Source of the DNA: Gracilinema caldarium DSM 7334
GTDB taxonomy: Bacteria > Spirochaetota > Spirochaetia > Treponematales > Breznakiellaceae
Assembly (NCBI RefSeq): GCF_000219725.1
Contig: NC_015732.1
Span: 744,001 to 808,000 of the forward strand
Direction of reading: 5' to 3'
Length of the DNA: 64,000 nt
Shown: positions 10,797 to 33,036 of the stretch, in pieces
Layout of the letters: the number at the start of each line of letters is the position of its first letter
Position numbering within the stretch: the stretch's first letter is position 1
Program-made: the position numbers and the translations under genes
The notes under the pieces: model-generated
What the model was told of the DNA's origin: nothing
What the model saw: only the letters and a program-made list of their open reading frames with translations
Database searches by the model: none

Positions 10797-11124
10797 AGGG
10801 GTCCTCCTGATTCTATTGTAGCATAGCTTGATAAAATCTGCGCGAAGACCTGTAAGCCCTAACGATAGAAATATCTTCACGGGGCATATCTGTGAAAATA
10901 TTTCTCTGTTTTCCATAGTAATGAGAAAATATTTCCTCCTAATAATGGGTACACTGAGGCTCTACGCAAAATCCTGCTTCAATTCAGTTGATGCTGGGTG
11001 TAACTGACAGCTCTGCTAGTGTTATATAATCGATAAATCTTTTCTATATATACAATTATATAAACAACCGCTGATAAAGATGATTCTTTATATTTTTTAA
11101 TTAAAATTACAAAAAAGTCTGAAC
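10797..11124. other. Intergenic region between acyl-CoA synthetase and the sigma-54 promoter
   Basis: No gene seen. It holds the 5' leader of the synthetase gene on the minus strand, a long hairpin and repeats at 10867-10932, a weak inverted repeat TCAGTT-N12-AACTGA at 10984-11007, and AT-rich sequence without a recognisable gene. Confidence 0.6.
10867..10932. repeat. Three GAAA-TAT-TTC-like elements with a 14-bp hairpin
   Basis: AGAAATATCTTCAC (10867-10880) and GTGAAAATATTTCT (10892-10905) form an inverted repeat matching at 13 of 14 positions, with an 11-base loop. A third copy, GAAAATATTTC, lies near 10923-10933. They sit 70-135 bases upstream of the acyl-CoA synthetase start and could be operators or leader structure. 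Confidence 0.5.
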
Positions 11125-11142
11125 TTGGCACGGTTAATGCAT
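11125..11142 (+). promoter_or_regulatory. Sigma-54 promoter
   Basis: TTGGCACGGTTAATGCAT has the invariant GG (11127-11128), ten bases, then GC (11139-11140), and a full TTGGCAC -24 element. Transcription would start near 11152, about 90 bases before the ATG of the exported protein. Confidence 0.85.
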
Positions 11143-11153
11143 GATAATAAATG

Positions 11154-11229
11154 TCGGTCGTTGACCGAAGGTACATCAGATGGAGCGGAGCAATTCGCTC
11201 CGCACAGAATAGAAGACGGAGTAATCCGT
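11154..11229 (+). other. Structured mRNA leader with three hairpins
   Basis: Three perfect inverted repeats stand in a row between the sigma-54 promoter and the ribosome-binding site: TCGGTC/GACCGA (11154-11168), GCGGAGC/GCTCCGC (11185-11203) and ACGGA/TCCGT (11216-11229). The last one ends next to the AAGGAG site at 11230-11235, so folding could affect translation or mRNA stability. Confidence 0.6.
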
Positions 11230-11241
11230 AAGGAGTATGCT

Positions 11242-11694
11242 ATGAAACGCATTCTTATTATCGTCACCGCTGGCCTTATCGCCGCCGGATCCCTCTCTGC
11301 TCAGGCTTTTGGCCCTGGAGTTGGCCCTCAGATTGCAGGACAGATGCAAGGCCTTCAGACCGTAAAGGTCGAAGGGAAACTTGCTCTCGTAAATGGTATG
11401 ATTGCTGTCCAGAGCGGTGGCAAAACCTACTATGTGGGTGGTTTGAACCGGCTTATCGGCTTTATCGACGGGCTTAAAGAAGGCGCCTCGGTAAAACTGG
11501 AGGGCTATGCCTTGGCATTCCCCGGCGCACCGGAATACCTGCATCTTCGGGTAACCAAGCTGACCTTTAACGGAAAAGATTATGACCTTTCTAACAGCTT
11601 TGGCCGAGGTATGGGTGCTATGGGTCCTATGGGGATGAATGGTCCCGGTTTTGACGGCCGGAATGGTAGGGCTGGCCGCGGCGACCGCTGGTAA
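11242..11694 (+). CDS. Small exported protein with Gly/Met-rich tail, sigma-54 driven
   Basis: A 150-residue protein. ATG 11242 has AAGGAG seven bases upstream and opens a clean signal peptide (MKRILIIVTAGLIAAGSLSAQA). The mature part begins with a Gly/Gln segment, then about 80 residues with beta-like pattern (VKVEGKLALVNGMIAVQSGGKTYYVGGL ... VKLEGYALAFP ... LRVTKLTFNGKDYDL), and ends in a low-complexity tail with GRGMGAMGPMGMNGPG and RGDRW. I recognise no family. The repeated Met and Gly in the tail recall metal-binding or chaperone-like periplasmic proteins, but that is only a guess. It stands alone behind a sigma-54 promoter and structured leader and is closed by a strong terminator. Confidence 0.75.
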   Translation: MKRILIIVTAGLIAAGSLSAQAFGPGVGPQIAGQMQGLQTVKVEGKLALVNGMIAVQSGGKTYYVGGLNRLIGFIDGLKEGASVKLEGYALAFPGAPEYLHLRVTKLTFNGKDYDLSNSFGRGMGAMGPMGMNGPGFDGRNGRAGRGDRW

Positions 11695-11772: not shown

Positions 11773-11808
11773 CCCCTGTTAGGGCTCATCCCCTAGCAGG
11801 GGTTTTAT
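11773..11808 (+). terminator. Strong terminator after the exported protein
   Basis: A 12-bp stem CCCCTGTTAGGG (11773-11784) with CCCTAGCAGGGG (11791-11802, one G-U pair) is followed by TTTTATTTT. A weaker inverted repeat CCCTGAAC/GTTCAGGG lies just upstream at about 11718-11760. Confidence 0.9.
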
Positions 11809-12119
11809 TTTCTATACTTTCCCACCTTTTCTTCCGTTGTACCCATATTGGTGCCGCTCCAGAGTTTTATATAGCTGGCGGCGGTACTGACTCCTTGTTC
11901 TAGCATGTGGGCATGAACCTGTCCTGCCAATTCGAGGAGTTGGGGCAGGGGACCTTCTATCACTGTTTCAAAGGGCCCTACCTCATAGGAGAGCCCCGAT
12001 GCTTGAATCATTTGTATAACGCTGTCGACTACTGCATAGGTCTCTGCTTTTGTTGCAAGTCCCATGGGAAGACATTGAATAGCCATCGCTGAGGGTATAG
12101 CATTTACATCAATTTTCAT
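11805..12119 (-). CDS. Thiamine-binding protein of the MTH1187/YkoF family
   Basis: A 104-residue single-domain member of the thiamine-binding UPF0045/MTH1187 family, which has a ferredoxin-like fold also found twice in YkoF. Visible family features are the IPSAMAIQCLPMG opening strand, ASGLSYEVGPFETVIEGPLPQLLEL and the terminal strand YIKLWSGTNMG. The start has AAGGAG at the right distance. It lies about 290 bases downstream of ykoC but is separated from it by a small gene on the other strand, so it probably has its own promoter in the 12119-12188 gap. Its place beside a riboswitch-controlled thiamine ECF transporter supports a role in thiamine or pyrimidine binding. Confidence 0.85.
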   Translation of the reverse strand: MKIDVNAIPSAMAIQCLPMGLATKAETYAVVDSVIQMIQASGLSYEVGPFETVIEGPLPQLLELAGQVHAHMLEQGVSTAASYIKLWSGTNMGTTEEKVGKYRK

Positions 12120-12187
12120 ATATACTCCTTATACATAAGATAGGGTCTTTTACTAGACCGGTATATGATAAAACAAGGAACAACGCC

Positions 12188-12403
12188 ATGAATGAATGCG
12201 AATTTGCACAGCAGTGTCCCTTTTTTAACAATCAGAGCGAAAACATGGGTACCGACATTGAGAACGTAAAAAACAGCTACTGCCGCAGCAACAATCTGCA
12301 TTGTGCTCTGTATATGATTGCCTCGAGCCTTGGTACCGATAAAATGCCAAAGAATGTGTTGCCCGGCGAAAAGGAAAAGGCTTTCGCAATCATTGCTGGC
12401 TAA
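12188..12403 (+). CDS. Small four-cysteine protein of unknown function
   Basis: A 71-residue protein with an AAGGA site upstream (about 12175). Four cysteines, C4, C10, C32 and C39, are arranged as C-x5-C (CEFAQQCPFF) and C-x6-C (YCRSNNLHCALYM), which could bind Zn or an Fe-S cluster. From memory, similar short proteins with a CPFF...YC...CARY pattern are widespread in anaerobes with no assigned function. It is transcribed against the thiamine genes, ending seven bases from the ykoC stop, and is not obviously related to them. The overlapping minus-strand frame looks like a shadow. Confidence 0.7.
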   Translation: MNECEFAQQCPFFNNQSENMGTDIENVKNSYCRSNNLHCALYMIASSLGTDKMPKNVLPGEKEKAFAIIAG

Positions 12404-12410
12404 GTTCCGG

Positions 12411-13208
12411 CTAACCCAGTTCAAAAACGAAGATCCCCACTCGTATAAGTCCGAGCCAGAGTATGAGGGCAGTAAAGCCTACTCCTATATCATACAGTGT
12501 ATCTTTTTTTGACCAAACAATTCGGTGGATAAAGGTTCGCTTATGAGCCTTTTCAAGCCCGCGGCCAGCCATGGAGAGACTGAGCCGTTCCCCATGCAAT
12601 ATAGCCCCAGAGAGAATGGTAATGGGCAGCCTGGTCAAAGACCGCTTGGGCAATGCCGTTCGGAATTGTTTTCTAGTTTTACCCCGTGATCCTGCTAGGC
12701 GAATTTCCTGGGCCTTCTGGGCAATTTCGATATCCCGTTTTAAGAGGGGAATCGTATTCCACCCTGCGAAAAGAGAAAAGCCAAAGCGGTAACTAAGATG
12801 CCAGTTCTGCATGAGAGCTCTGATAATGTCATAGGGACTTGCCGCTAGGATGTATCCTGAGGAAAGACATATCAGTGTAAAACTTCTGAGAAACACTGCA
12901 ATCGCCCGGTCTAGGCCGTTTACCCCCTCAGCGGGAAAGAACAGATTCATAAAAAAAAGTCCAAAGGACAACGTTGAAAGGGGCAGAACCAGGCGGATGA
13001 AACGCTGGAATTCAAGGCGAGCCACAAGAAACAGGTTGATGAGTCCCAAGGCCAGGTAAGAGAGGGGGGTGAGTTTATCCATGGCAAAGAGGACTGGTAT
13101 CATAATAAACAGTTGGGCGAGGAGCAATGCCAGGGGGTTTGGTTTCCAGCTTTGTTGCTGTCTCTGGCAGTATTCCGTGTTATTGTCGACTGTGTGGCTT
13201 TTGTTCAT
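12411..13208 (-). CDS. ykoC: Thiamine ECF transporter T component (YkoC-like)
   Basis: Transmembrane coupling subunit (EcfT/CbiQ family) of 265 residues with hydrophobic segments at about 26-60, 60-80, 90-125 and a C-terminal one (about 240-262). The cytoplasmic coupling helices show the family Ala-Arg-Gly signatures in diverged form: EIRLAGSRGKTRKQF and LSMAGRGLEKAHKR. The start codon overlaps the ykoD stop by four bases (ATGA), so the two are translationally coupled. It joins the ATPase pair to the S component YkoE to import thiamine or its precursor. Confidence 0.85.
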   Translation of the reverse strand: MNKSHTVDNNTEYCQRQQQSWKPNPLALLLAQLFIMIPVLFAMDKLTPLSYLALGLINLFLVARLEFQRFIRLVLPLSTLSFGLFFMNLFFPAEGVNGLDRAIAVFLRSFTLICLSSGYILAASPYDIIRALMQNWHLSYRFGFSLFAGWNTIPLLKRDIEIAQKAQEIRLAGSRGKTRKQFRTALPKRSLTRLPITILSGAILHGERLSLSMAGRGLEKAHKRTFIHRIVWSKKDTLYDIGVGFTALILWLGLIRVGIFVFELG

Positions 13209-14686
13209 AGATACATTTCCTCCAGATGCCCTTCGGTAAGCCAGAGGGTCCTGCAGGAGAGGGCCTTAACGAAGGGGCTGTCGTGGCTTACCATCAATAT
13301 GGTCGACTGGGCAAGCTCCGGAAGCTGGAGATATTCCAGAAGGCGGTGCCGGGCTTCCCGATCAAGACCGTAGGTCGGTTCATCCATGATGATGAGGTCC
13401 CGCTCCATGGCCAGGGCGATGCAGAGGGTGAGGCGCCGTTTTTCTCCTTCGCTTAATTTAAAAGGATGGGCTTGGAGCCGGTGGTCCAGCGAAAAACGCT
13501 TTGCCAGCTGCAGGGCTTGCTCCTTACGCTCTGTGTTAAAAGCTAGTTCCGCTTCCACTGTTTCTTCTACAAAGAGATGCTCTGGGTTCTGGGGAATATA
13601 GGCCAGATGCCGGTAATACTCGTCCCGTTTCATGGTGCTGATATCCTGGCCGCTGAACCAGATTGTATTCTGTTCTACCGGAAGAAGCTGGACGATTTTC
13701 TTTAATAATGTGGTTTTACCACTTCCGCTTGGTCCCATGATGGCGGTTATGGTGCCCCGGTAGAGCGTTAACTCAAGATTTTGTAGAATGGCCTTACTTC
13801 GCTGGGCTTGCAGTGCGGCAGACCCTTGGACAGGTTTTGTCAATATGAGTCCCTGATTTTTTCTGGCAGGTCCATGCTCACTGTAGTGATGAGACAGTCC
13901 ATGAATTTCAAGCAGAGGTGCCTGTGATGTAGGACCAAGCGCTGGCGTGCTGACAGGATCGGGGAAAATGCCGGTAGCGTGAGGTAAAGTGCCATGACCA
14001 TTCTCGGGAAGCTCAAGGCTTGGGGTGTTAGCCAGCACATCCTCCCAGGATCTCTGCTCTGTAAGGCGCCCTTCATCAATCTGAACCCAGCGGGTGCAGA
14101 AACCTTGTACAAGCTCCAAACGATGTTCCACCAGGACCACCGTTATCTCCGATGGCAGTTGCTCCAGGTCCCGGAAAAGCTGGCGGGACCGGTCCTCATC
14201 CAGGTAGGAGGTAGGTTCATCGAGGAATAAGATTTCCGGTTCCTGGATGATCCCCGCCGCCAGGGACAGCCGCTGGCATTCACCGCCGGATAGCTCCAGA
14301 GGATTCCGATAGCGGAATTGAGTCATGCCGAAGCGGTTCAGCATGGTCGTAATGCGCCGGTCCATTTCATCCACCGGCATAGCCTGATTTTCCAGCGGAA
14401 AGGCAAGTTCTTCCTCTACAGTGGGGGTGATGATTTGGGCTTCGGGGTTTTGCAGGACCAGGGCTTTGCGGGTGTAGGACAGCCTGAGACTACCCGTGAG
14501 TTCCCCACCCACATAGTCCGGTACAAGTCCTGCAAGGATGGCCAGAAGGGTCGATTTTCCGCTTCCGGAAGGTCCGTGCAGGAGCAGGCGGTCCCCCCGG
14601 TGGATACTCAACCTAATGTCCTTAAGCAGGGGCTTGCGCCTGCCGGGAAAACGGAATGACAGGTCTTCCAGCCGAATGAGTTCCAT
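13205..14686 (-). CDS. ykoD: Thiamine ECF transporter double ATPase (YkoD-like)
   Basis: Two ABC ATPase domains in one 493-residue chain. The first (about 1-225) has Walker A GPSGSGKSTLL, signature LSGGECQRLSL and Walker B ILFLDEPTSYLDED. The second (about 255-490) has GPSGSGKTTLL, an altered signature LSEGEKRRLTL (Glu for the second Gly) and LIIMDEPTYGLDRE. Tandem fused ATPases are typical of YkoD. It sits between ykoE (32-base gap) and ykoC (4-base overlap) in an operon behind a TPP riboswitch, which sets its substrate class as thiamine or hydroxymethylpyrimidine. Confidence 0.93.
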   Translation of the reverse strand: MELIRLEDLSFRFPGRRKPLLKDIRLSIHRGDRLLLHGPSGSGKSTLLAILAGLVPDYVGGELTGSLRLSYTRKALVLQNPEAQIITPTVEEELAFPLENQAMPVDEMDRRITTMLNRFGMTQFRYRNPLELSGGECQRLSLAAGIIQEPEILFLDEPTSYLDEDRSRQLFRDLEQLPSEITVVLVEHRLELVQGFCTRWVQIDEGRLTEQRSWEDVLANTPSLELPENGHGTLPHATGIFPDPVSTPALGPTSQAPLLEIHGLSHHYSEHGPARKNQGLILTKPVQGSAALQAQRSKAILQNLELTLYRGTITAIMGPSGSGKTTLLKKIVQLLPVEQNTIWFSGQDISTMKRDEYYRHLAYIPQNPEHLFVEETVEAELAFNTERKEQALQLAKRFSLDHRLQAHPFKLSEGEKRRLTLCIALAMERDLIIMDEPTYGLDREARHRLLEYLQLPELAQSTILMVSHDSPFVKALSCRTLWLTEGHLEEMYL

Positions 14687-14718
14687 AATATACCACCAGG
14701 AATAGCCCGTTGGAGGCC

Positions 14719-15324
14719 CTATTCCCTGTCTCCAGCCTGTTCATCCCGCACCAGGTCGTCAGCACAGCGCAGGTTTGATGCAACACCGGTGCGGATAATG
14801 CCCCGGCCGATCCGGTAGGCCAGCCAGCCAGCCCAGAAGAGGCCGCCGACGGAGACGGACACAATCTGGATGGGCCAGATCCAGGCCTGGAGGGTCCAGT
14901 ACTGGCTGTAAAAGAAGTCCAGTACATATGAAAAGATTGATGAAACGAGGGCCGCCAGGAGCATGGTGGGTAAATTCCATTTCTTATACCGGGTAGCGGC
15001 GAAAACCACCTCCGCCCCCAGGCCCTGTACGAGGCCCCAAATGGCCGCGGTGATACCCCACTGGGTAATAAAGCCTTCGAGGATAGCTGCCAGGACTTCG
15101 CCGAGCAGGGCCGCCCCGGGCCGCCGGATGATAAAGGCTACCAGGGTCCCGCCGATGAACCAGACCCCTGCAAGGAGGTAATCGAGGCCGATGGCCGACA
15201 GGGGTTTAGCAAGGGCCGCAATAAAGGTCCAGGCCCAGAAGAGTACACCGATGGCGATAGAAAGCACCACCAGGACCACGACTTCGTTCAGTTTCCAGGA
15301 AAACAATTTGTTGTTCCCAGCCAT
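14719..15324 (-). CDS. ykoE: Thiamine ECF transporter S component (YkoE-like)
   Basis: Substrate-binding membrane subunit of 201 residues. ATG 15324 is chosen because AAAGGAG stands just upstream and the extra residues of the longer frame would lie in the riboswitch leader. Five or six hydrophobic segments are visible (VVVLVVLSIAIGVLFWAWTFIAAL, LLAGVWFIGGTLVAFII, LLGEVLAAILEGFI, LLAALVSSIFSYVL, VSVSVGGLFWAGWLAYRIG). The pattern GALLGEVLAAILEGFITQWG fits the YkoE family. It is the first gene of the ykoE-D-C operon, directly under a TPP riboswitch, so it should bring in thiamine or HMP when TPP is low. Confidence 0.92.
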   Translation of the reverse strand: MAGNNKLFSWKLNEVVVLVVLSIAIGVLFWAWTFIAALAKPLSAIGLDYLLAGVWFIGGTLVAFIIRRPGAALLGEVLAAILEGFITQWGITAAIWGLVQGLGAEVVFAATRYKKWNLPTMLLAALVSSIFSYVLDFFYSQYWTLQAWIWPIQIVSVSVGGLFWAGWLAYRIGRGIIRTGVASNLRCADDLVRDEQAGDRE

Positions 15325-15393
15325 AGATGCTCCTTTCCGGTACATACCGGTCTGTGCGAAAATAATGGCTGTGGGGAATAGTTGATGAGACAC

Positions 15394-15474
<81 letters not shown>

Positions 15475-15494
15475 AGCACTGTAGACAGCTTGGG

Positions 15495-24756: not shown

Positions 24757-24774
24757 TTGGCATGCTAATTGCTA
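24757..24774 (+). promoter_or_regulatory. Sigma-54 promoter of dps
   Basis: ATTGGCATGCTAATTGCT has GG (24759-24760), ten bases and GC (24771-24772); the -12 element TTGCT is full consensus and the -24 element TTGGCAT differs in one base. Start of transcription would be near 24784, 28 bases before the ATG. Confidence 0.85.
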
Positions 24775-24811
24775 TTATTATAAAACAAACCGTATATAAG
24801 GAGTAACTATT

Positions 24812-25249
24812 ATGGTATCTATAGAAAAACGGCTTGCGAAGCACGTATCGGATCTGGCGGTTTTATTTATCAAACTCCATGATTATCATTGGCATGTTCG
24901 GGGGCCTCAATTTAAGGTACTCCATGAACTAACTGAAGCCCTCTATGATGGGGTGAACGAGCAGTATGATGCGATCGCAGAACGACTCGTGCAGCTGGGT
25001 GGTAAAGCGCCTGCTAGTGCAGCTGTCTATGCACGGGAAAGTTCCATATCCGAAGCTGGTGCTGCTTTCTATACTGCTGATGATATCCTCAGTGGGGTTA
25101 TCAAGGATTTTGAGTATCTCCTGGGCGAATATAAAGTAACCAGAAAACTGGCTGCAGATATCGATGATGCTGCAACGGATACGCTGTTCGCCGATTATAT
25201 TAAGGATTTAGAAAAACAGATCTGGATGCTGAAAGCCATGAAAGCCTAG
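24812..25249 (+). CDS. dps: Dps-family DNA-binding ferritin-like protein
   Basis: A 145-residue Dps protein, a 12-mer that binds iron with peroxide and shields DNA. Ferroxidase residues are visible: H26 in LHDYHWHVRG, H38 in LHELTEALYD, and D53/E57 in YDAIAERLVQLGG. Length is at the short end for the family and the N-terminus has only a few basic residues (EKRLAK). AAGGAG precedes ATG 24812. Transcription from a sigma-54 promoter with palindromic enhancer-like sites upstream is unusual for dps, which is normally under OxyR, PerR or sigma-S control. Confidence 0.93.
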   Translation: MVSIEKRLAKHVSDLAVLFIKLHDYHWHVRGPQFKVLHELTEALYDGVNEQYDAIAERLVQLGGKAPASAAVYARESSISEAGAAFYTADDILSGVIKDFEYLLGEYKVTRKLAADIDDAATDTLFADYIKDLEKQIWMLKAMKA

Positions 25250-26745: not shown

Positions 26746-27645
26746 CTACTTCTCCTCTGTAGTTGATTTGTTCAGCATTTCGCCCAATCGATGCCAGGCG
26801 TTTTTCAGTTGATCCTTAATGGGACTCTCCTGTTCATATTCCACGATGGTCTTTTCTGCGATTATGGCCCGGGTTACCTTTTCGTCGTAGGGAAGAACCG
26901 CAAGCAATGTGATATGCTGGGAATCCAAATAAGCGACGATCTTTTCGGTCATTTCGGGATTTATATCCGATTTATTGATGATACAGCCGGCAGGGATTTT
27001 AAATTTTTTCACCAGTTCATAGACCCGCTGTAAATCGTGGAGCCCCGAAACAGTGGGTTCGGTTACGAGCACCACAAAGGAAGCTCCACTTAAAGAGGAT
27101 ACCACAGGACAGCCGATACCCGGAGAACCGTCCACCAGTACCAGAGCTTTCCCCTGTTCTTCCGCAAGAGCCTTTGCCCGTTTTTTTACCTCTGCCACGA
27201 GCTTTCCCGAATTGTCAGAACCGATCCCCAGTTTTGCGTGCACCATGGTACAGCCTGCTCTGGTGGTGGACACAAAGAGCTGGCCCGCTTTTTCTTTATG
27301 ATTACTAATAGCCTTGGCAGGACAGACGCGAGAGCAGTAACCACAGCCCTCACAGACGAGGCTATCGATCTTGTAGATTCGCCCCCGGCGAGCTATGGCG
27401 CTAAAATGACAAACCTGAGCACAGCGGCCACAACCGATACAGCGATCAGGATCGATCATCGCTACTTCACCGGAATAAAAATCCTCCTGTATGGCCATGT
27501 CAGGTTTTAGTAAAAGATGCATATCCGCCGCGTCCACATCGCAGTCCGCCGCCACCAGGTTGGCAGAGCCTAATATGGTAAAACTGGCGGTAATGGAAGT
27601 TTTCCCGGTCCCCCCCTTGCCGGATATAACGACAATTTCTTTCAT
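26746..27645 (-). CDS. MinD/ParA-type ATPase with inserted 2x[4Fe-4S] ferredoxin domain
   Basis: A 299-residue P-loop ATPase: deviant Walker A GKGGTGKTS at 9-17, then CDVDAADMHLLL, with an inserted ferredoxin module at about 60-115 holding two CxxCxxC...CP clusters (DRCIGCGRCAQVCHFSAI and CEGCGYCSRVCPAKAI). VDGSPGIGCPVV and the Thr-Glu-Pro switch VTEPTVSGLHDL follow. In ORP-type clusters two such ATPases work with DIM proteins, probably in building or loading the metal cluster. Its start overlaps the stop of the preceding gene by four bases, and the DIM gene begins 2 bases beyond its stop. Confidence 0.92.
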   Translation of the reverse strand: MKEIVVISGKGGTGKTSITASFTILGSANLVAADCDVDAADMHLLLKPDMAIQEDFYSGEVAMIDPDRCIGCGRCAQVCHFSAIARRGRIYKIDSLVCEGCGYCSRVCPAKAISNHKEKAGQLFVSTTRAGCTMVHAKLGIGSDNSGKLVAEVKKRAKALAEEQGKALVLVDGSPGIGCPVVSSLSGASFVVLVTEPTVSGLHDLQRVYELVKKFKIPAGCIINKSDINPEMTEKIVAYLDSQHITLLAVLPYDEKVTRAIIAEKTIVEYEQESPIKDQLKNAWHRLGEMLNKSTTEEK

Positions 27646-28958
27646 GTTGTACTCCCGCTCAGGTTTTTAATGTAATTGGCCACTTTTTCCAATTCCGAAC
27701 GGAATCGGGGAAGTTCCCTATAGATCAGTTGACCCCGGGAATACAGTTCAGCCGCCCTTCGGTCGTTGGGTAAGCGGGCCAAAATGGGAATCCCCTCAGT
27801 TTCGCAGTATCGGTCCACCGAATCATTTCCCACCCCGTAGCGATTGATGACCACCCCAAAGGGATTACCCATCTGTCGGATGGTCTCTACGGCCAGCTGC
27901 AGGTCATTCAGCCCGAAGGGATTGGGCTCGGTAACCAAAATAACCAGGTCCGATGACCGGACGGTCTCAATCACCGGGCAGGATGTTCCCGGGGGAGCAT
28001 CGTAAATTCGATATGGGTATGAGCCAAAGGTTTCTTTTACGGAGCGCTTGGTTTGGGCAATCAGGGGAACTGCCTGTTCTTCACCAATATCAAGCCTGCT
28101 TTCAATAAACACCAGTTTGTCCAGATCAAAGCGCCGGGTTTCTCCCATCCGTACCGGAACCATGGGCAGTGCCCTGGCGGGACAGAGATCCGAACAGGCA
28201 AAACAGCCATGGCAAAGCTGGGGAAAGATCATGATTTCTTTACCCAATTTGACGATGGCATGAAAATTACATACCCTTTGGCACAGCCCGCAGAGGGTAC
28301 AGGCAGAGCCGTCCCACTGGGGAATGTATTTGTATTGTATTTCCCGGCTTGCTTCGGTTCCCCGGATAAAAAGTCCCGAATTGGGCTCTTCCACATCCAG
28401 GTCCACCAGCACCACCGGTTCTGTTTCTGCAAGAAGGGCGGCTAGGTTGGTCGACAGGGTCGTTTTTCCGGTGCCACCCTTTCCGCTTGCAATGACGATA
28501 TCACTCATCAGTCTTTTGTAATTCCTCAAGCCGTTTGCGAATAGCCTGCTCCCCGGCCCGGTTTTCCGGCGACCCCAACGATGGCGGTGTCCGGAAAGAC
28601 AGCCGGGCATGGCATAGATTGGTTTATTAAGTTGCCCGGTTTCCCAGGCATGCAGTACTACTTCCAGTGGGCCGGCAATAAAGGAGAACACCTCTATCCC
28701 AAAGTTCCGGATTTCCATTTCCAGGTCCCGGGATATGGCTCCACAGATTAACTCGTTTACCCCCTGGTCAGCCAAAAAACGAGCCTTTTCAGCAGAATGC
28801 TTCATGGACCAATTGAACTCATGGCCTAATCGGTCATGCTCACCGCTTTGATGATCCAAAGCTCCTGTAGAGGGCTCCATATCCAGAATGAGAATCCGCT
28901 CAGCGGAATCGAACACCGGTGCGACCCGTTGATTCCAGGGGGTAATTGCCAGCCTCAT
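27642..28958 (-). CDS. DIM domain fused to Fe-S MinD-type ATPase
   Basis: A 438-residue fusion. Residues 1-120 are a DIM/NifX-type domain (MRLAITPWNQRVAPVFDSAERILILD, then VNELICGAISRDLEMEIRNFGIEVFSFIAG). A basic linker (about 122-150) leads to a MinD/Mrp-like ATPase with Walker A ASGKGGTGKTTLS, ferredoxin insert CTLCGLCQRVCNFHAI and CHGCFACSDLCPARAL, and DAPPGTSCPVIETVR. In most genomes these are two genes; here the frame is continuous with no stop, although MSDIVIASGKGG could be an internal start. First gene of the ORP-like operon behind a sigma-54 promoter. Confidence 0.9.
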   Translation of the reverse strand: MRLAITPWNQRVAPVFDSAERILILDMEPSTGALDHQSGEHDRLGHEFNWSMKHSAEKARFLADQGVNELICGAISRDLEMEIRNFGIEVFSFIAGPLEVVLHAWETGQLNKPIYAMPGCLSGHRHRWGRRKTGPGSRLFANGLRNYKRLMSDIVIASGKGGTGKTTLSTNLAALLAETEPVVLVDLDVEEPNSGLFIRGTEASREIQYKYIPQWDGSACTLCGLCQRVCNFHAIVKLGKEIMIFPQLCHGCFACSDLCPARALPMVPVRMGETRRFDLDKLVFIESRLDIGEEQAVPLIAQTKRSVKETFGSYPYRIYDAPPGTSCPVIETVRSSDLVILVTEPNPFGLNDLQLAVETIRQMGNPFGVVINRYGVGNDSVDRYCETEGIPILARLPNDRRAAELYSRGQLIYRELPRFRSELEKVANYIKNLSGSTT

Positions 28959-28969
28959 ATTATATATAT

Positions 28970-28986
28970 AGCATAAACTGTGCCAA
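28970..28986 (-). promoter_or_regulatory. Sigma-54 promoter of the ORP-like operon
   Basis: On the minus strand TTGGCACAGTTTATGCT has GG (28984-28983), ten bases and GC (28972-28971), with a full TTGGCAC -24 element. Strangely the ATG at 28958 lies only 13 bases beyond the GC, so transcription would start almost at the start codon, or translation begins further in. Confidence 0.85.
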
Positions 28987-29069
28987 CATTGATGAATTTT
29001 ATAAATCTATATAAATTCTATAGTTATATATTGATAAGCCTGTCCCGGGGGATGGCTTGTGTCGTAGTT

Positions 29070-29116
29070 ATGCAACATACTGTTGCATTACGTGTTGCAT
29101 TATATGTTGCATAGTT
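29070..29116. promoter_or_regulatory. TGTTGCA repeats, probable activator sites
   Basis: ATGCAACA-TAC-TGTTGCAT (29070-29088) is a perfect 8-bp palindrome with a 3-base spacer. It runs into three direct copies of TGTTGCAT with a 12-base period (29081, 29093, 29105). The palindrome centre is about 95 bases from the sigma-54 GG of the ORP-like operon and just upstream of the activator gene at 29143. Confidence 0.75.
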
Positions 29117-29142
29117 GCTACAATTGGTGCTAGAATCGGGCC

Positions 29143-30555
29143 ATGACCGATATCATTTTGGAAAGTATTTCCGATGGGGTTTTTACCATAGACCTAGAGT
29201 GGCATATCACTTCCTTTAACCGGGCGGCGGAGAACATAATCGGGATTAAACGGAACGAAGCCATAGGGAAACTGTGTTACGAGGTCTTTAAGTCCAACAT
29301 GTGTGAATCCCGCTGTCCTCTGCGGAAAACCATGCAGAGCGGCAAACCGGTCATCAATGTGGAAGGGTTCTGCATTAACCCCGCGGGAGAGCGGATACCC
29401 ATCAGTGTATCAACAGCCCTCCTGAAGGACCAAGCGGGGCATGTGATAGGCGGTGCCGAAACCTTTCGGGATCTGCGGGAATTAGAAGAACTCAAGCAAC
29501 AGCTGGTTTCCGATCCTCTTAAGGGGGAACTAACGAGCCGTAGTCCTGCGATGCATCCAATCCTGGAAATGCTTCCTACTGTGGCGGACAGTTCCGCGGT
29601 AATTCTGATTGAAGGAGAAACCGGTACGGGGAAGGAAGTTACCGCCAGGGCGATCCACCGTATGAGTCCCCAGGCACAGGGGCCCTTTGTAGCGGTAAAC
29701 TGCGGAGCTCTTCCCGATACGCTTTTAGAGTCAGAACTCTTCGGGTATAAAAAAGGCGCCTTTACCGGGGCTGACCGGGATAAGATTGGTCGTTTTAAAA
29801 TGGCTGATGGGGGCGCCCTGTTTCTGGATGAGATCGGAGAAATTTCTCAGGCCATGCAGGTTAAGCTCCTCCGGGTGCTTCAGGAAGGTGTCTATGAACG
29901 GCTGGGGAGTACCACATCGGAACGGAGCCGGGCCCGTATCATCTGTGCCACCAACCGGAACTTAAAGCAGATGGTAGAGGAGGGCCGGTTTCGCCGGGAC
30001 CTCTTTTATCGCATTAATGTAATTACCCTTTCCCTCCCGCCCTTGCGGGAGCGCAAGGAGGATATCCCCGGGCTGGCAGACTATTTCTTACGAAAATATC
30101 GTATTAAAATGGGCAAAAAAATACAGGGTTTTACCGAGGATGTCTACGAGGCGTTCTATGCCTACCCCTGGCCCGGTAACATCCGGGAACTGGAAAACGT
30201 CGTTGAACGGGCGGTGGTGCTCTGTTCAGGAGAGCGCATCACGCTTTCCTGCCTGCCTGAAGAATTGGTACACTGGAATGTACAGGCCGCCAGGGCCCTG
30301 ACTCTTTTGCCAAAGCCCGCTGGAGCCCCAGGGTTTTCTCCTATTCTACCTCATCACCATGAAGCCCCTGAGGTCCCCCACGAGGAACGTTTTCACCAAA
30401 CCGCCGCCCAGGCGGAGACCGACCTGATACGGAAAACCCTGGCCCAAAACGGCAACAACCGCACCCTCACAGCCCGCCAGCTTGGTATACACCGGGCAAC
30501 CCTGTACCGAAAAATGAAACAGTACGGGATAGAGCTGGATGAGTCCGGTGTGTAA
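29143..30555 (+). CDS. PAS-type sigma-54-dependent activator (NtrC family)
   Basis: A 470-residue enhancer-binding protein. Residues 1-115 are a PAS domain (ILESISDGVFTIDLEWHITSFNRAAENIIG) with a cysteine cluster, SNMCESRCPLRKTM, that could sense redox or bind Fe-S. Residues about 135-370 are the AAA+ domain with Walker A GETGTGKE, the sigma-54 contact loop KKGAFTGAD, Walker B GGALFLDEIGE and the arginine finger region RFRRDLFYRINV. The C-terminus has a Fis-type HTH (TLTARQLGIHRATLYRKMKQYG). It is divergent from the ORP-like operon, as the regulator of orp genes is in Desulfovibrio, and TGTTGCA sites lie between them. Confidence 0.94.
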   Translation: MTDIILESISDGVFTIDLEWHITSFNRAAENIIGIKRNEAIGKLCYEVFKSNMCESRCPLRKTMQSGKPVINVEGFCINPAGERIPISVSTALLKDQAGHVIGGAETFRDLRELEELKQQLVSDPLKGELTSRSPAMHPILEMLPTVADSSAVILIEGETGTGKEVTARAIHRMSPQAQGPFVAVNCGALPDTLLESELFGYKKGAFTGADRDKIGRFKMADGGALFLDEIGEISQAMQVKLLRVLQEGVYERLGSTTSERSRARIICATNRNLKQMVEEGRFRRDLFYRINVITLSLPPLRERKEDIPGLADYFLRKYRIKMGKKIQGFTEDVYEAFYAYPWPGNIRELENVVERAVVLCSGERITLSCLPEELVHWNVQAARALTLLPKPAGAPGFSPILPHHHEAPEVPHEERFHQTAAQAETDLIRKTLAQNGNNRTLTARQLGIHRATLYRKMKQYGIELDESGV

Positions 30556-30674: not shown

Positions 30675-31322
30675 CTACAAACTCTTGTGGCAGAACCACC
30701 AGTCATAGCCTTCGTATTTCTTGAGCCGCTCCTCCGCATCCTTCATAGTCTTGGCAGGAGGAATAATGACCCGGTCTTTAATCAAGCTGTTATTCGGCCA
30801 GTCCGCGGGGACCGCAACGCCGTTTTTATCCGATACCTGGAGCGCCTTCGCTGCCCGGACAAATTCGCCGATATTCCGGCCGATTTCCTGGGGGTAGTAC
30901 ACCACAAGCCGTACCTTCCCGTTGGGGTCGACGATAAAGACCGCCCGAACCGTATTGGTCCCCTTTCCGGGATGGAGGAGCCCCAGTTTTTCCGCAATGG
31001 CATCATTCGCCGCCGCAATGGGGAAGGAAATGGAGACCCCGAGCTTTTCCTTAATCCACTCAGCCCATTTGATGTGACTGAATACCTGGTCTACAGACAT
31101 ACCGATGAGCTTGACCCCGAGCGCCTCAAACTCTTTAGCATGCTGTTCAAAGGCTACAAATTCGGTGGTACAGACGGGGGTAAAATCCGCAGGATGGCTG
31201 AAGAGCAGGAACCAGGATCCCTTAAGGTCCTGGGGTAGATGCAGTACGCCGTGGGTGGTTACCAGTTCCATTTCGGGAAAATCATCTCCCAAGAGGGGCA
31301 TTGAAAATCCTTTTTCTTCCAT
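30675..31322 (-). CDS. Prx6-type peroxiredoxin
   Basis: A 215-residue peroxiredoxin that reduces hydroperoxides. The peroxidatic cysteine is C51 in [13 protein letters not shown]; the length, the [20 protein letters not shown] segment and the C-terminal arm place it in the 1-Cys/Prx6 subfamily. A second Cys, C211 in DWWFCHKSL, resembles the C-terminal Cys of archaeal members and could resolve the oxidised form. AAGGAG precedes the ATG. It is transcribed from a near-perfect sigma-54 promoter and shares upstream palindromes with dps; a GAF-type activator gene is divergent. Confidence 0.95.
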
Positions 31323-31397
31323 AATAAGACTCCTTAGAATAATTATATTTGCGATCCTCCGCTTATAGCAGGGCCGCTTTCATGGTGTCTATTTATA

Positions 31398-31414
31398 AGC
31401 AATAACTGTGCCAA
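31398..31414 (-). promoter_or_regulatory. Sigma-54 promoter of the peroxiredoxin gene
   Basis: On the minus strand TTGGCACAGTTATTGCT matches consensus at both elements: GG at 31412-31411, ten bases, GC at 31400-31399. About 76 bases separate it from the ATG. Confidence 0.93.
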
Positions 31415-31485
31415 GTTTTCAGTTTTATCTAAATCAATATAATATAAATAGATATTTTATATTGATGAATATATCTTGCCGAAAC

Positions 31486-31522
31486 ACCGAATAATCGGTA
31501 TTTTTAATACCATAATATCGGT
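31486..31522. promoter_or_regulatory. ACCGA-N4-TCGGT sites shared with dps
   Basis: ACCGA-ATAA-TCGGT (31486-31499) is perfect in its 5-bp arms; ACCAT-AATA-TCGGT (31509-31522) keeps the right half. Their centres are about 80 and 104 bases from the GG of the peroxiredoxin sigma-54 promoter. The second copy touches the ribosome-binding site of the activator gene at 31534, so binding there could also limit its own expression. Confidence 0.72.
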
Positions 31523-31533
31523 GGAGGCAACGA

Positions 31534-33036
31534 ATGGTCGGTGAATCTCTGGTGATGGACAGTTCCCGGGTTCTGGAAATTATCCTGCAGGCCTTACGGG
31601 AACTGGTTGAATACGAGCTCGCGGTTATCCTGAAATATGACGGCCAGGAGCACCTTCGGGTTATAAAAGCCCTGGGGCCCCTTTCCACGAGAGCCCTCAA
31701 CAACTACACCATCTCCCTTGATGAACGGCCGGATCTTGCGGCGGTCATTACCCGAAAACGGGCCCATCTTTTTAGCCCCGATGAGCCCCATGTGGATACC
31801 TATGCGGATATTCTGGATCTGCCGGACCAGCATTCCTGTCTCGTTTCACCTTTAATGATCGAAGACGAACTGGTGGGTCTTTTAACGCTGGATCACCGGT
31901 CATGTAATCGCTTCAGTCCGGCTATTGTCCGCTTTGTGGAAACCCTTTCCAAACTCATGTCGATTGCTCTCATCCAGCTGGATATGTCCCGCGACCTGGC
32001 AGAACAGAACAGCCGGCTTTTACAGGAACGGAACCAGCTCCTGCTCTCTGAGTCCGATGTCTTTTCCCACCTGGTTGGGGAATCTACCGAATGGCAGCGG
32101 GTATTGGATTCAGTGAAGCTCGTGGCAAGCGCCACCGTGCCGGTCCTGCTCCAGGGTGAAACCGGTACCGGAAAGGAAGAAATTGCCCGGGCTATCCACC
32201 GGCTCTCTCCCCGCGCCAGGGGTCCCTTTGTACCGCTGAATTGCTCCGCCCTGACAGCCAGCCTCGCCGAAAGTGAACTCTTTGGTCATGAAAAGGGTGC
32301 CTTTACCGGCGCCCTGGCGCTTAAACGGGGCCGTTTTGAGCTCGCCCATGGGGGTACCCTTTTTCTCGATGAAATTGGAGACCTGCCCCTGGAACTCCAG
32401 CCCAAGTTACTGAGGGCCCTGCAGGAGGGGGTTTTTGAGCGGGTGGGCGGAGAAAAACCGGTCCAGGTAGATGTCCGTATTATTGCAGCGACCCATGTGG
32501 ATTTACAACAAGCGGTAGCGGCCGGTACTTTCCGGGAAGACCTCTATTACCGTCTCGCAGTGTTCCCTATAGAACTGCCACCCCTGCAACTCCGGTCCGC
32601 AGATATCCTCCTCCTGGCCGATTATTTCCTGCGGAGAATCCGGGAGCGTTCAAACCGACAGGTCTTAAGCTTCAGTCCCGAAGCGTTAGATAAAATACAG
32701 CGGTATACCTGGCCGGGGAATGTGCGGGAGCTAAAAAATGTCATTGAACGGGCAAGCATCCTCGCGGTAGATGGCATCATCCGGCCGGAGCACATAACGG
32801 GCCTCAGAACCGAGGCGTTGGAGCCTGCTTCCCGATGCGAAGAGGCTGGCTCCCATGATGGTGAGGGCTCCGATGGCCGAAAGCGGTCCCTGAATGAGGC
32901 CATGGCAGACCATATCCGGCAGGCCCTTAAGGCCTGCGGGGGTAAAATCTATGGTTCCGACGGCGCCGCAGCCCTTTTGGGGCTTAAGCCCAGCACCCTC
33001 CAGAGCCGGATGAAAAAGCTAGGAATTAGGAAGTAG
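31534..33036 (+). CDS. GAF-type sigma-54-dependent activator (NorR-like architecture)
   Basis: A 500-residue enhancer-binding protein. Residues about 8-165 are a GAF domain ([45 protein letters not shown]), then a short coiled coil. The AAA+ domain (about 185-420) has Walker [23 protein letters not shown], Walker [14 protein letters not shown] and the R-finger region [13 protein letters not shown]. The C-terminal HTH is weakly Fis-like ([21 protein letters not shown]). The GAF-AAA-HTH order is that of NorR, which senses NO with a GAF iron site, and FhlA. Its neighbour suggests a signal of peroxide or other oxidant. GGAGG precedes the start. Its 3' end overlaps ackA by 18 bases, tail to tail. 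Confidence 0.93.

Follow-up and report, generated by a model that had tools for sequence, protein, structure and literature searches.

Stabilising stem-loops at the 5' end of mRNAs go under the name of ompA, and the CusF-type periplasmic copper carriers are exported OB-fold proteins of metal handling. The enterobacterial ZraPSR is described as a sigma-54-dependent two-component system for zinc and envelope stress (PMC4987338, PMC7657598), with ZraR acting on the divergent sigma-54 promoters of zraSR and zraP (PMC4987338). The protection that a 5' stem-loop confers is attributed to RppH and RNase E, both of which require a single-stranded 5' end (PMC3997798). Most of what is known of envelope stress responses comes from enterobacteria; in spirochaetes, whose envelope is unusual, few have been described.

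The locus described here lies in Gracilinema caldarium DSM 7334, in a 64-kb stretch of DNA which was analysed as a whole and is called the window. Its gene for the exported protein P0001 is probably the output of a spirochaete two-component system, by a chain that would run all the way from a sensor kinase to the exported protein. A search of literature titles and beginnings of abstracts, lying mostly outside the subscription journals, returned none that describes the P0001 gene or its regulon.

The P0001 gene and its product

The features of the gene are:

11230 to 11235, plus strand: Shine-Dalgarno AAGGAG, read in the sequence
11242 to 11694, plus strand: P0001 gene, 150-aa exported protein, ATG start behind AAGGAG
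11242 to 11301, plus strand: signal peptide region, residues 1-20, with conserved Ala-Gln at 20-21 (homologue alignments)
11359 to 11595, plus strand: OB-like beta-barrel core, residues 40-118 (AlphaFold2 pLDDT about 87-96 in these blocks)
11596 to 11691, plus strand: Gly/Met/Arg-rich tail ending Arg-Trp, predicted disordered (pLDDT about 50)
11773 to 11802, plus strand: strong intrinsic terminator 3' of the gene, 12-bp stem and T-run

The open reading frame listed from TTG 11125 begins within the promoter, and the true start is the ATG at 11242. The gene is present in one copy in its genome and, as the terminator at 11773-11802 is strong, its transcript is probably monocistronic. Beyond the terminator, on the minus strand (11805-15477), is a thiamine cluster of thiamine-binding protein, CbiQ-like and ABC transporter genes, headed by a TPP riboswitch (15384-15477).

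An earlier note, made from the sequence of the window, had described the product as a small exported protein of an undescribed family with a Gly/Met-rich tail, and so it appears: P0001 has a signal peptide, whose cleavage site was placed by eye, and carries a Gly/Met/Arg tail. At E<=1 neither Pfam nor NCBIfam nor the PDB sequences returned a match to it, and PHROGs gave a single weak one (0.04). Judged by these searches, P0001 belongs to no described family. The AlphaFold2 model is a confident six-stranded barrel over residues 40-118. The structures which Foldseek and VIA-align match to it are mostly OB-fold proteins or domains, including SSB, the exported Potempin A, NigD-like proteins and YgiW. 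The best match has a middling Z of 6.8, which counts against the preferred explanation, and Foldseek gave no match at E<=0.001. These matches to a predicted model support an OB fold, neither a family nor a function.

In the homologue alignments the core has a near-invariant run around GF.DGLKEGA.V..EG. Among the 32 complete homologues scored >=130 bits, 19 end in Trp and 17 have MMG within the tail, and Met makes up on average 9% of the tail. An exported OB-like fold and a Met-rich tail would both suit a dedicated periplasmic carrier of copper or soft metal, like the OB-fold protein CusF. We consider this identity unlikely, as the barrel has no conserved Met, His, Cys or Trp, its invariant columns being Gly, Leu, Glu, Ala, Val and similar residues, and many homologue tails are without Met.

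The earlier note had also proposed a search for homologues, and one protein search found them in 135 of the 291 genomes of the order. A GTDB scan of one genome per species with one peptide pattern gave 63 relatives, all spirochaete or Treponema, and by these searches the family appears so far confined to spirochaetes. Deduplication on the first 100 residues left 149 distinct homologues, 148 of them with >=150 nt of upstream DNA. Most genomes of one family (f3) do not have the gene, and in these the match to the RpoN DNA-binding domain likewise tends to be weaker. Tracking of the gene with rpoN was uninformative, this domain being present in 281/291 genomes. In one genome (G060, locus L298) a longer homologue lies between a heavy-metal ATPase-like gene, a lipoprotein gene and an FTR1-like permease gene, all named by eye; this neighbourhood is a hint of metal handling.

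The sigma-54 promoter and the upstream palindromes

Upstream of the gene are found:

10891 to 10907, no strand assigned: upstream activator palindrome 1, TGTGAAAATATTTCTCT (16.6 bits, de novo motif)
10922 to 10938, no strand assigned: upstream activator palindrome 2, TGAGAAAATATTTCCTC, 31 bp from the first (16.4 bits)
11125 to 11141, plus strand: sigma-54 promoter (-24/-12), TTGGCACGGTTAATGCA, GG-N10-GC
11152, plus strand: predicted transcription start, 12 nt past the -12 C by sigma-54 geometry

The full sigma-54 promoter claimed in the earlier note is the sole zero-mismatch match to TTGGCACN6TGCA in the window. With up to 2 mismatches there are 24 matches against 16.7 expected, mildly above chance, so that the weight rests on the perfect one. 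With a score and threshold devised for this analysis, a sigma-54 site was found upstream of 92/148 distinct homologues compared with 51/2960 shuffled upstream regions, and in 37/42 of the closest homologues (profile score >=130 bits). All transcription starts were computed from promoter geometry.

As site of an activator the earlier note had suggested TCAGTT-N12-AACTGA (10984-11007), which is present here and absent from three relatives of the same genus (L003-L005). Conservation is found instead at tandem palindromes that precede the promoter by about 200-235 bp, for which a de novo search gave the consensus TGGGWAAWWTTWCCCA; the two listed are the only sites >=14.5 bits in the window, and shuffled windows have 0-1. 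When inverted repeats preceding the 92 promoters were counted without bias, GGGAA-N5-TTCCC came first, in 11 sequences against 0.1 expected, and with <=1 mismatch this motif occurs in 41/92, compared with 9/1840 shuffles and 2/92 for the reversed motif. With the matrix derived from it, 71/92 have a site that exceeds the 99% level of shuffles. Because the final matrix was trained on the same 92-promoter set a held-out test was made, in which 62/92 were above the 99% and 76/92 above the 95% level; for palindrome 1, with its own genus left out of the training, 0/300 shuffles were as good. The distances between neighbouring palindromes (n=55) fall at 19-22 bp in 29 cases and at 30-34 bp in 14, i.e. 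at two or three helical turns. Among the 39 homologues without a sigma-54 site one has the palindrome.

Across the source genome the degenerate palindrome had 7 matches and the reversed control 6; this absence of enrichment counts against the preferred explanation. The pattern was rejected as a whole-genome regulon finder and for this reason only palindromes beside sigma-54 sites were used, where they offer a concrete motif for predicting the rest of the regulon. In the genus of G. caldarium a unit with a 4Fe-4S membrane protein (PF12801) has palindromes and a sigma-54 site in 3/3 genomes examined, a small SHOCT-type protein preceding the membrane protein in 2/3. In another genome (G026) three of the four genome-wide palindrome matches start 146-250 bp upstream of a sigma-54 site; one gene behind these is Hsp20-like by eye, and its 48-residue fragment has no Pfam match.

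Other genes of the window also follow sigma-54 sites. These include a ferritin-like/Dps-type gene behind TTGGCATGCTAATTGCT (24757-25249), a peroxiredoxin gene divergent from a GAF-type sigma-54 activator (30675-33036), and a gene with FeMo-cofactor and P-loop iron-transfer domains divergent from a PAS-type activator, with repeated TGCAACA-like motifs between the two (27642-30555). Genes for sigma-70-family factors lie behind sigma-54 sites in all six genomes read, four of which have two (L103 and L104 in the source genome; L246, L253, L262, L263, L270, L272, L281 and L293). Outside the source genome these were mostly named by eye; the pattern recalls the Borrelia RpoN-RpoS cascade.

The histidine kinase and the NtrC-type regulator

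In five genomes a P0001 homologue adjoins a histidine kinase and an NtrC-type regulator. The kinase is divergent from the homologue in G012, G268 (L045), G025 (L059) and G064 (L296), and kinase and regulator are downstream of it in G003 (L037). The number of linked genomes was read by eye from tables and is a lower bound: the kinase is within 0.6 kb of the homologue on the same contig in at least 7 of the 84 genomes having both (G003, G012, G025, G041, G064, G205, G268), and lies about 5-6.5 kb away in G147, G199 and G210. The term orphan, applied to the gene in the earlier note, is thus correct for its own genome and does not hold for these relatives. In G012 both the homologue and the kinase divergent from it have a sigma-54 site upstream. 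Two groups of neighbouring kinases were set aside: L313, beside the homologue in G267, is of a different type and is followed by a MarR-like gene, and those adjoining homologues in L048, L054, L056, L062, L067 and L069 had no NtrC-type regulator among the neighbours read.

The kinase profile (A6) matches 99/291 genomes. Gene and kinase occur together in 84 genomes, the gene only in 51, the kinase only in 15 and neither in 141 (Fisher p 3e-22, on counts that ignore phylogeny). Two observations count against the preferred explanation: leaving out family f3 weakens the co-occurrence (p 0.001), and 51 of the 135 gene-bearing genomes have no kinase at the threshold used, many of them being incomplete assemblies. 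Out of 112 homologues mapped, those with a sigma-54 site lie in kinase-bearing genomes in 62 cases and in genomes without the kinase in 11, and those without such a site in 11 and 28.

The source genome encodes an orthologous pair: its best matches to the kinase and to the regulator lie side by side at 1341.7-1344.4 kb, the regulator occupying 1343.0-1344.4 kb. Compared along its full length, this regulator shares 52% identity with that of G012, and the next candidate reaches 45% over the first 380 residues. Pfam recognises both the kinase and the regulator at L311 and the regulator of the source genome, the regulators being composed of REC, AAA and Fis HTH domains. The likely activator of the P0001 gene is, from these comparisons, such a pair of histidine kinase and NtrC-type regulator, unlinked to the gene in its own genome. 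The earlier note had supposed that a third activator may act here, and this candidate regulator is indeed distinct from the two activators encoded in the window.

Three findings count against this assignment. The pair is about 590 kb from the P0001 gene, neither a palindrome nor a sigma-54 site was found near it, and among sigma-54-type homologues the palindrome does not significantly track the kinase (50:7 versus 12:4, p 0.24). With ten strong sigma-54 activator domains in the genome, the first and last of these findings would also agree with another of the ten driving the gene, for example a nitrogen or redox activator, the linkage in relatives being then a lineage-specific rewiring. This we hold to be improbable on two grounds. 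The same tandem palindromes occur upstream of the kinase-regulator operon in G038, and in G237 upstream of an operon encoding a HlyD-type adaptor, an ABC ATPase (named by eye), a MacB-like permease, a TolC-type channel, the kinase and the regulator. Furthermore, the recognition-helix pattern LG[IL][ST]R[RK]T is common to the linked regulators and that of the source genome, and is absent from the four other activators of this genome that were read. The efflux genes of the G237 operon are at the same time a point in favour of the metal carrier discussed above.

The periplasmic domain of the kinase has a Met/Gly/Pro/Arg-rich loop resembling the P0001 tail. In 30 kinases Met makes up 5.0% of the sensor loop and 1.1% of the cytoplasmic parts, an enrichment that again would suit a metal carrier. 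When the composition of loop and tail was compared over 15 genomes, one of which had an empty loop owing to a parser failure, Met was not significantly correlated (rho 0.24, p 0.39), nor were Gly, Pro, Arg and Asn; His gave p 0.001, as one of six tests on few genomes. The presence of a Met-rich loop together with a Met-rich tail suggests, at the level of composition, a shared ligand. Taken further, P0001 could be the secreted partner of its own sensor, loop and tail competing for a single ligand, be it a soft metal or a damaged polymer of the envelope, in an OB-fold feedback system of envelope stress unique to spirochaetes, with the mRNA cap hairpin locking the response; this extension we regard as rather doubtful.

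The leader RNA

The leader has three hairpins:

11154 to 11168, plus strand: 5'-terminal stem-loop, 6 bp stem, GTT loop (folding and covariation)
11185 to 11203, plus strand: second leader hairpin, 7 bp stem (folding)
11216 to 11229, plus strand: third leader hairpin, 5 bp stem, abutting AAGGAG (folding)

These are the three hairpins of the earlier note, the last lying, as it said, beside the ribosome-binding site. The minimum free energy of the leader is -33.8 kcal/mol (z -2.75; 3/200 shuffles as good). Its conservation in relatives, named in that note as the refuting check, was determined, and the outcome is divided: the first hairpin persists in relatives, its stem bearing compensatory changes, but the third, that of the Shine-Dalgarno, is not kept in the same form within the genus.

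A stem-loop starting at +0 to +8 is present in 68/84 leaders of >=25 nt, compared with 817/4200 shuffles and with 8/83 of the 40-mers upstream of the promoter; 8/92 leaders under 25 nt were left out of hairpin scoring. GTT is the commonest loop (23). As a further control 84 other sigma-54 sites were taken (24 from the source genome and 60 from five others), of which 42 had a readable gene and a leader >=25 nt; 14/42 of these leaders have such a hairpin, so that the 5' stem-loop is enriched at P0001 homologues, not exclusive to them. Two tusA-like genes behind sigma-54 sites (L105, L251), in two genomes of the genus, have 5' stem-loops differing from each other.

Covariation was counted in an alignment (A4) of 23 leaders picked by CGTTG alone; another alignment (A3), picked partly by the presence of the hairpin, was left uncounted. 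In the 23 leaders 92.0% of cells are paired versus 73.4% after shuffling, both sides are changed in 32 cells versus 11.9 (0/500 shuffles as high), compensatory change is seen in 5/6 pairs, and slid controls reach <=49% paired. Such a stem-loop, at the extreme 5' end of a short monocistronic mRNA, would most likely protect it from 5'-end-dependent decay. Against this stand the shortest homologue leaders (12-30 nt), which have no hairpin, and the source genome, in which no RNase E/G was found.

The leader could also be a regulatory RNA and not a stability element, namely a translation switch, a thermometer or a CsrA target. Over their whole length the leaders are more stably folded than shuffles (mean z -1.99, n=75). 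In family f5 a CGAAC/GTTCG hairpin holds the Shine-Dalgarno in its loop, and 6/7 pairs of the second hairpin show compensatory changes. We nevertheless find this function doubtful, because the region past +28 is weakly structured (mean z -0.69, compared with -0.40 for the DNA before the promoter), the genus of G. caldarium has not kept the Shine-Dalgarno hairpin, and the leader has no Rfam match at the gathering cut-off, where the only match, elsewhere, was the TPP riboswitch. CsrA was rejected as a general reader of the leaders, the loops of the first hairpin being mostly GTT without GGA.

Proposed mechanism

In the two-component reading a histidine kinase in the membrane, sensing through a periplasmic domain, would phosphorylate the NtrC-type regulator. 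This in turn would bind the tandem palindromes 100-250 bp upstream and activate sigma-54 RNA polymerase at the -24/-12 promoter. Together with the protection of the mRNA, this would give a large burst of one exported protein. Its barrel and flexible Gly/Met/Arg tail would most likely bind damaged components of the envelope or else a soft metal, and P0001 may in turn act back on the kinase, in the manner of ZraP and ZraS.

The promoter, the palindromes, the covariation of the stem-loop, the linkage and co-occurrence of the kinase and the predicted fold can be read from the sequences, and the DNA and RNA elements among them are shown by their conservation. Binding of the palindromes by the regulator, action of the distant pair, protection of the mRNA and the function of P0001 are what we infer, and the chain from kinase, regulator and palindromes to promoter, capped mRNA and exported OB-fold protein is the simplest reading. 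A role of P0001 in envelope or metal stress, as supposed in the earlier note, is plausible, and the linked kinase and the regulon appear to motivate it better. Taken together, the protein, its DNA switch, its RNA cap and the sensor pair look like an unrecognised envelope-sensing system. It would bring together, all open to experiment, a kinase and a regulator, their DNA site and promoter, an RNA element and the protein put out, a set that is present in many spirochaete families.

Comparison with known systems

The barrel of P0001, in distinction to CusF, has no conserved Met, His or Trp ligands in its invariant or near-invariant columns; CusF is absent among the best 50 VIA-align matches listed, which proves nothing. 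With the BOF protein YgiW (1nnx; Z 5.5, rmsd 4.0 over 75 residues) P0001 shares the small exported OB-like barrel, and differs in its regulation and its long Gly/Met/Arg tail. P0001 has no match to the BOF profile, which we take to be PF04076, and neither do any of the 19 members of its alignment A1.

The leader stem-loop resembles the ompA type in lying few nt from the predicted start in most leaders. It differs in that several bacterial families have kept it at a single gene with a single type of promoter, and in occurring in a genome without a recognised RNase E/G. The Borrelia RpoN-RpoS system is likewise a spirochaete sigma-54 regulon with an NtrC-like activator, and the sigma-70-family genes behind sigma-54 sites are a second likeness; the outputs differ.

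With ZraPSR the P0001 system has in common a kinase and an NtrC-family regulator, a sigma-54 promoter in front of the gene for a small exported accessory protein, the divergent arrangement of kinase and homologue in five relatives and, in two relatives with palindromes before the operon of the pair itself, a suggestion of autoregulation. The differences are that P0001 is an all-beta OB-like barrel and not of the ZraP/CpxP/Spy type, none of which it matched in Pfam or NCBIfam at E<=1, that in the source genome the pair is unlinked to the gene and the kinase operon and the P0001 gene do not face each other with divergent sigma-54 promoters, and that the conserved 5'-terminal stem-loop of the mRNA is an added feature. 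By analogy, the P0001 system works like ZraPSR in its layout, with an accessory protein unrelated to ZraP.
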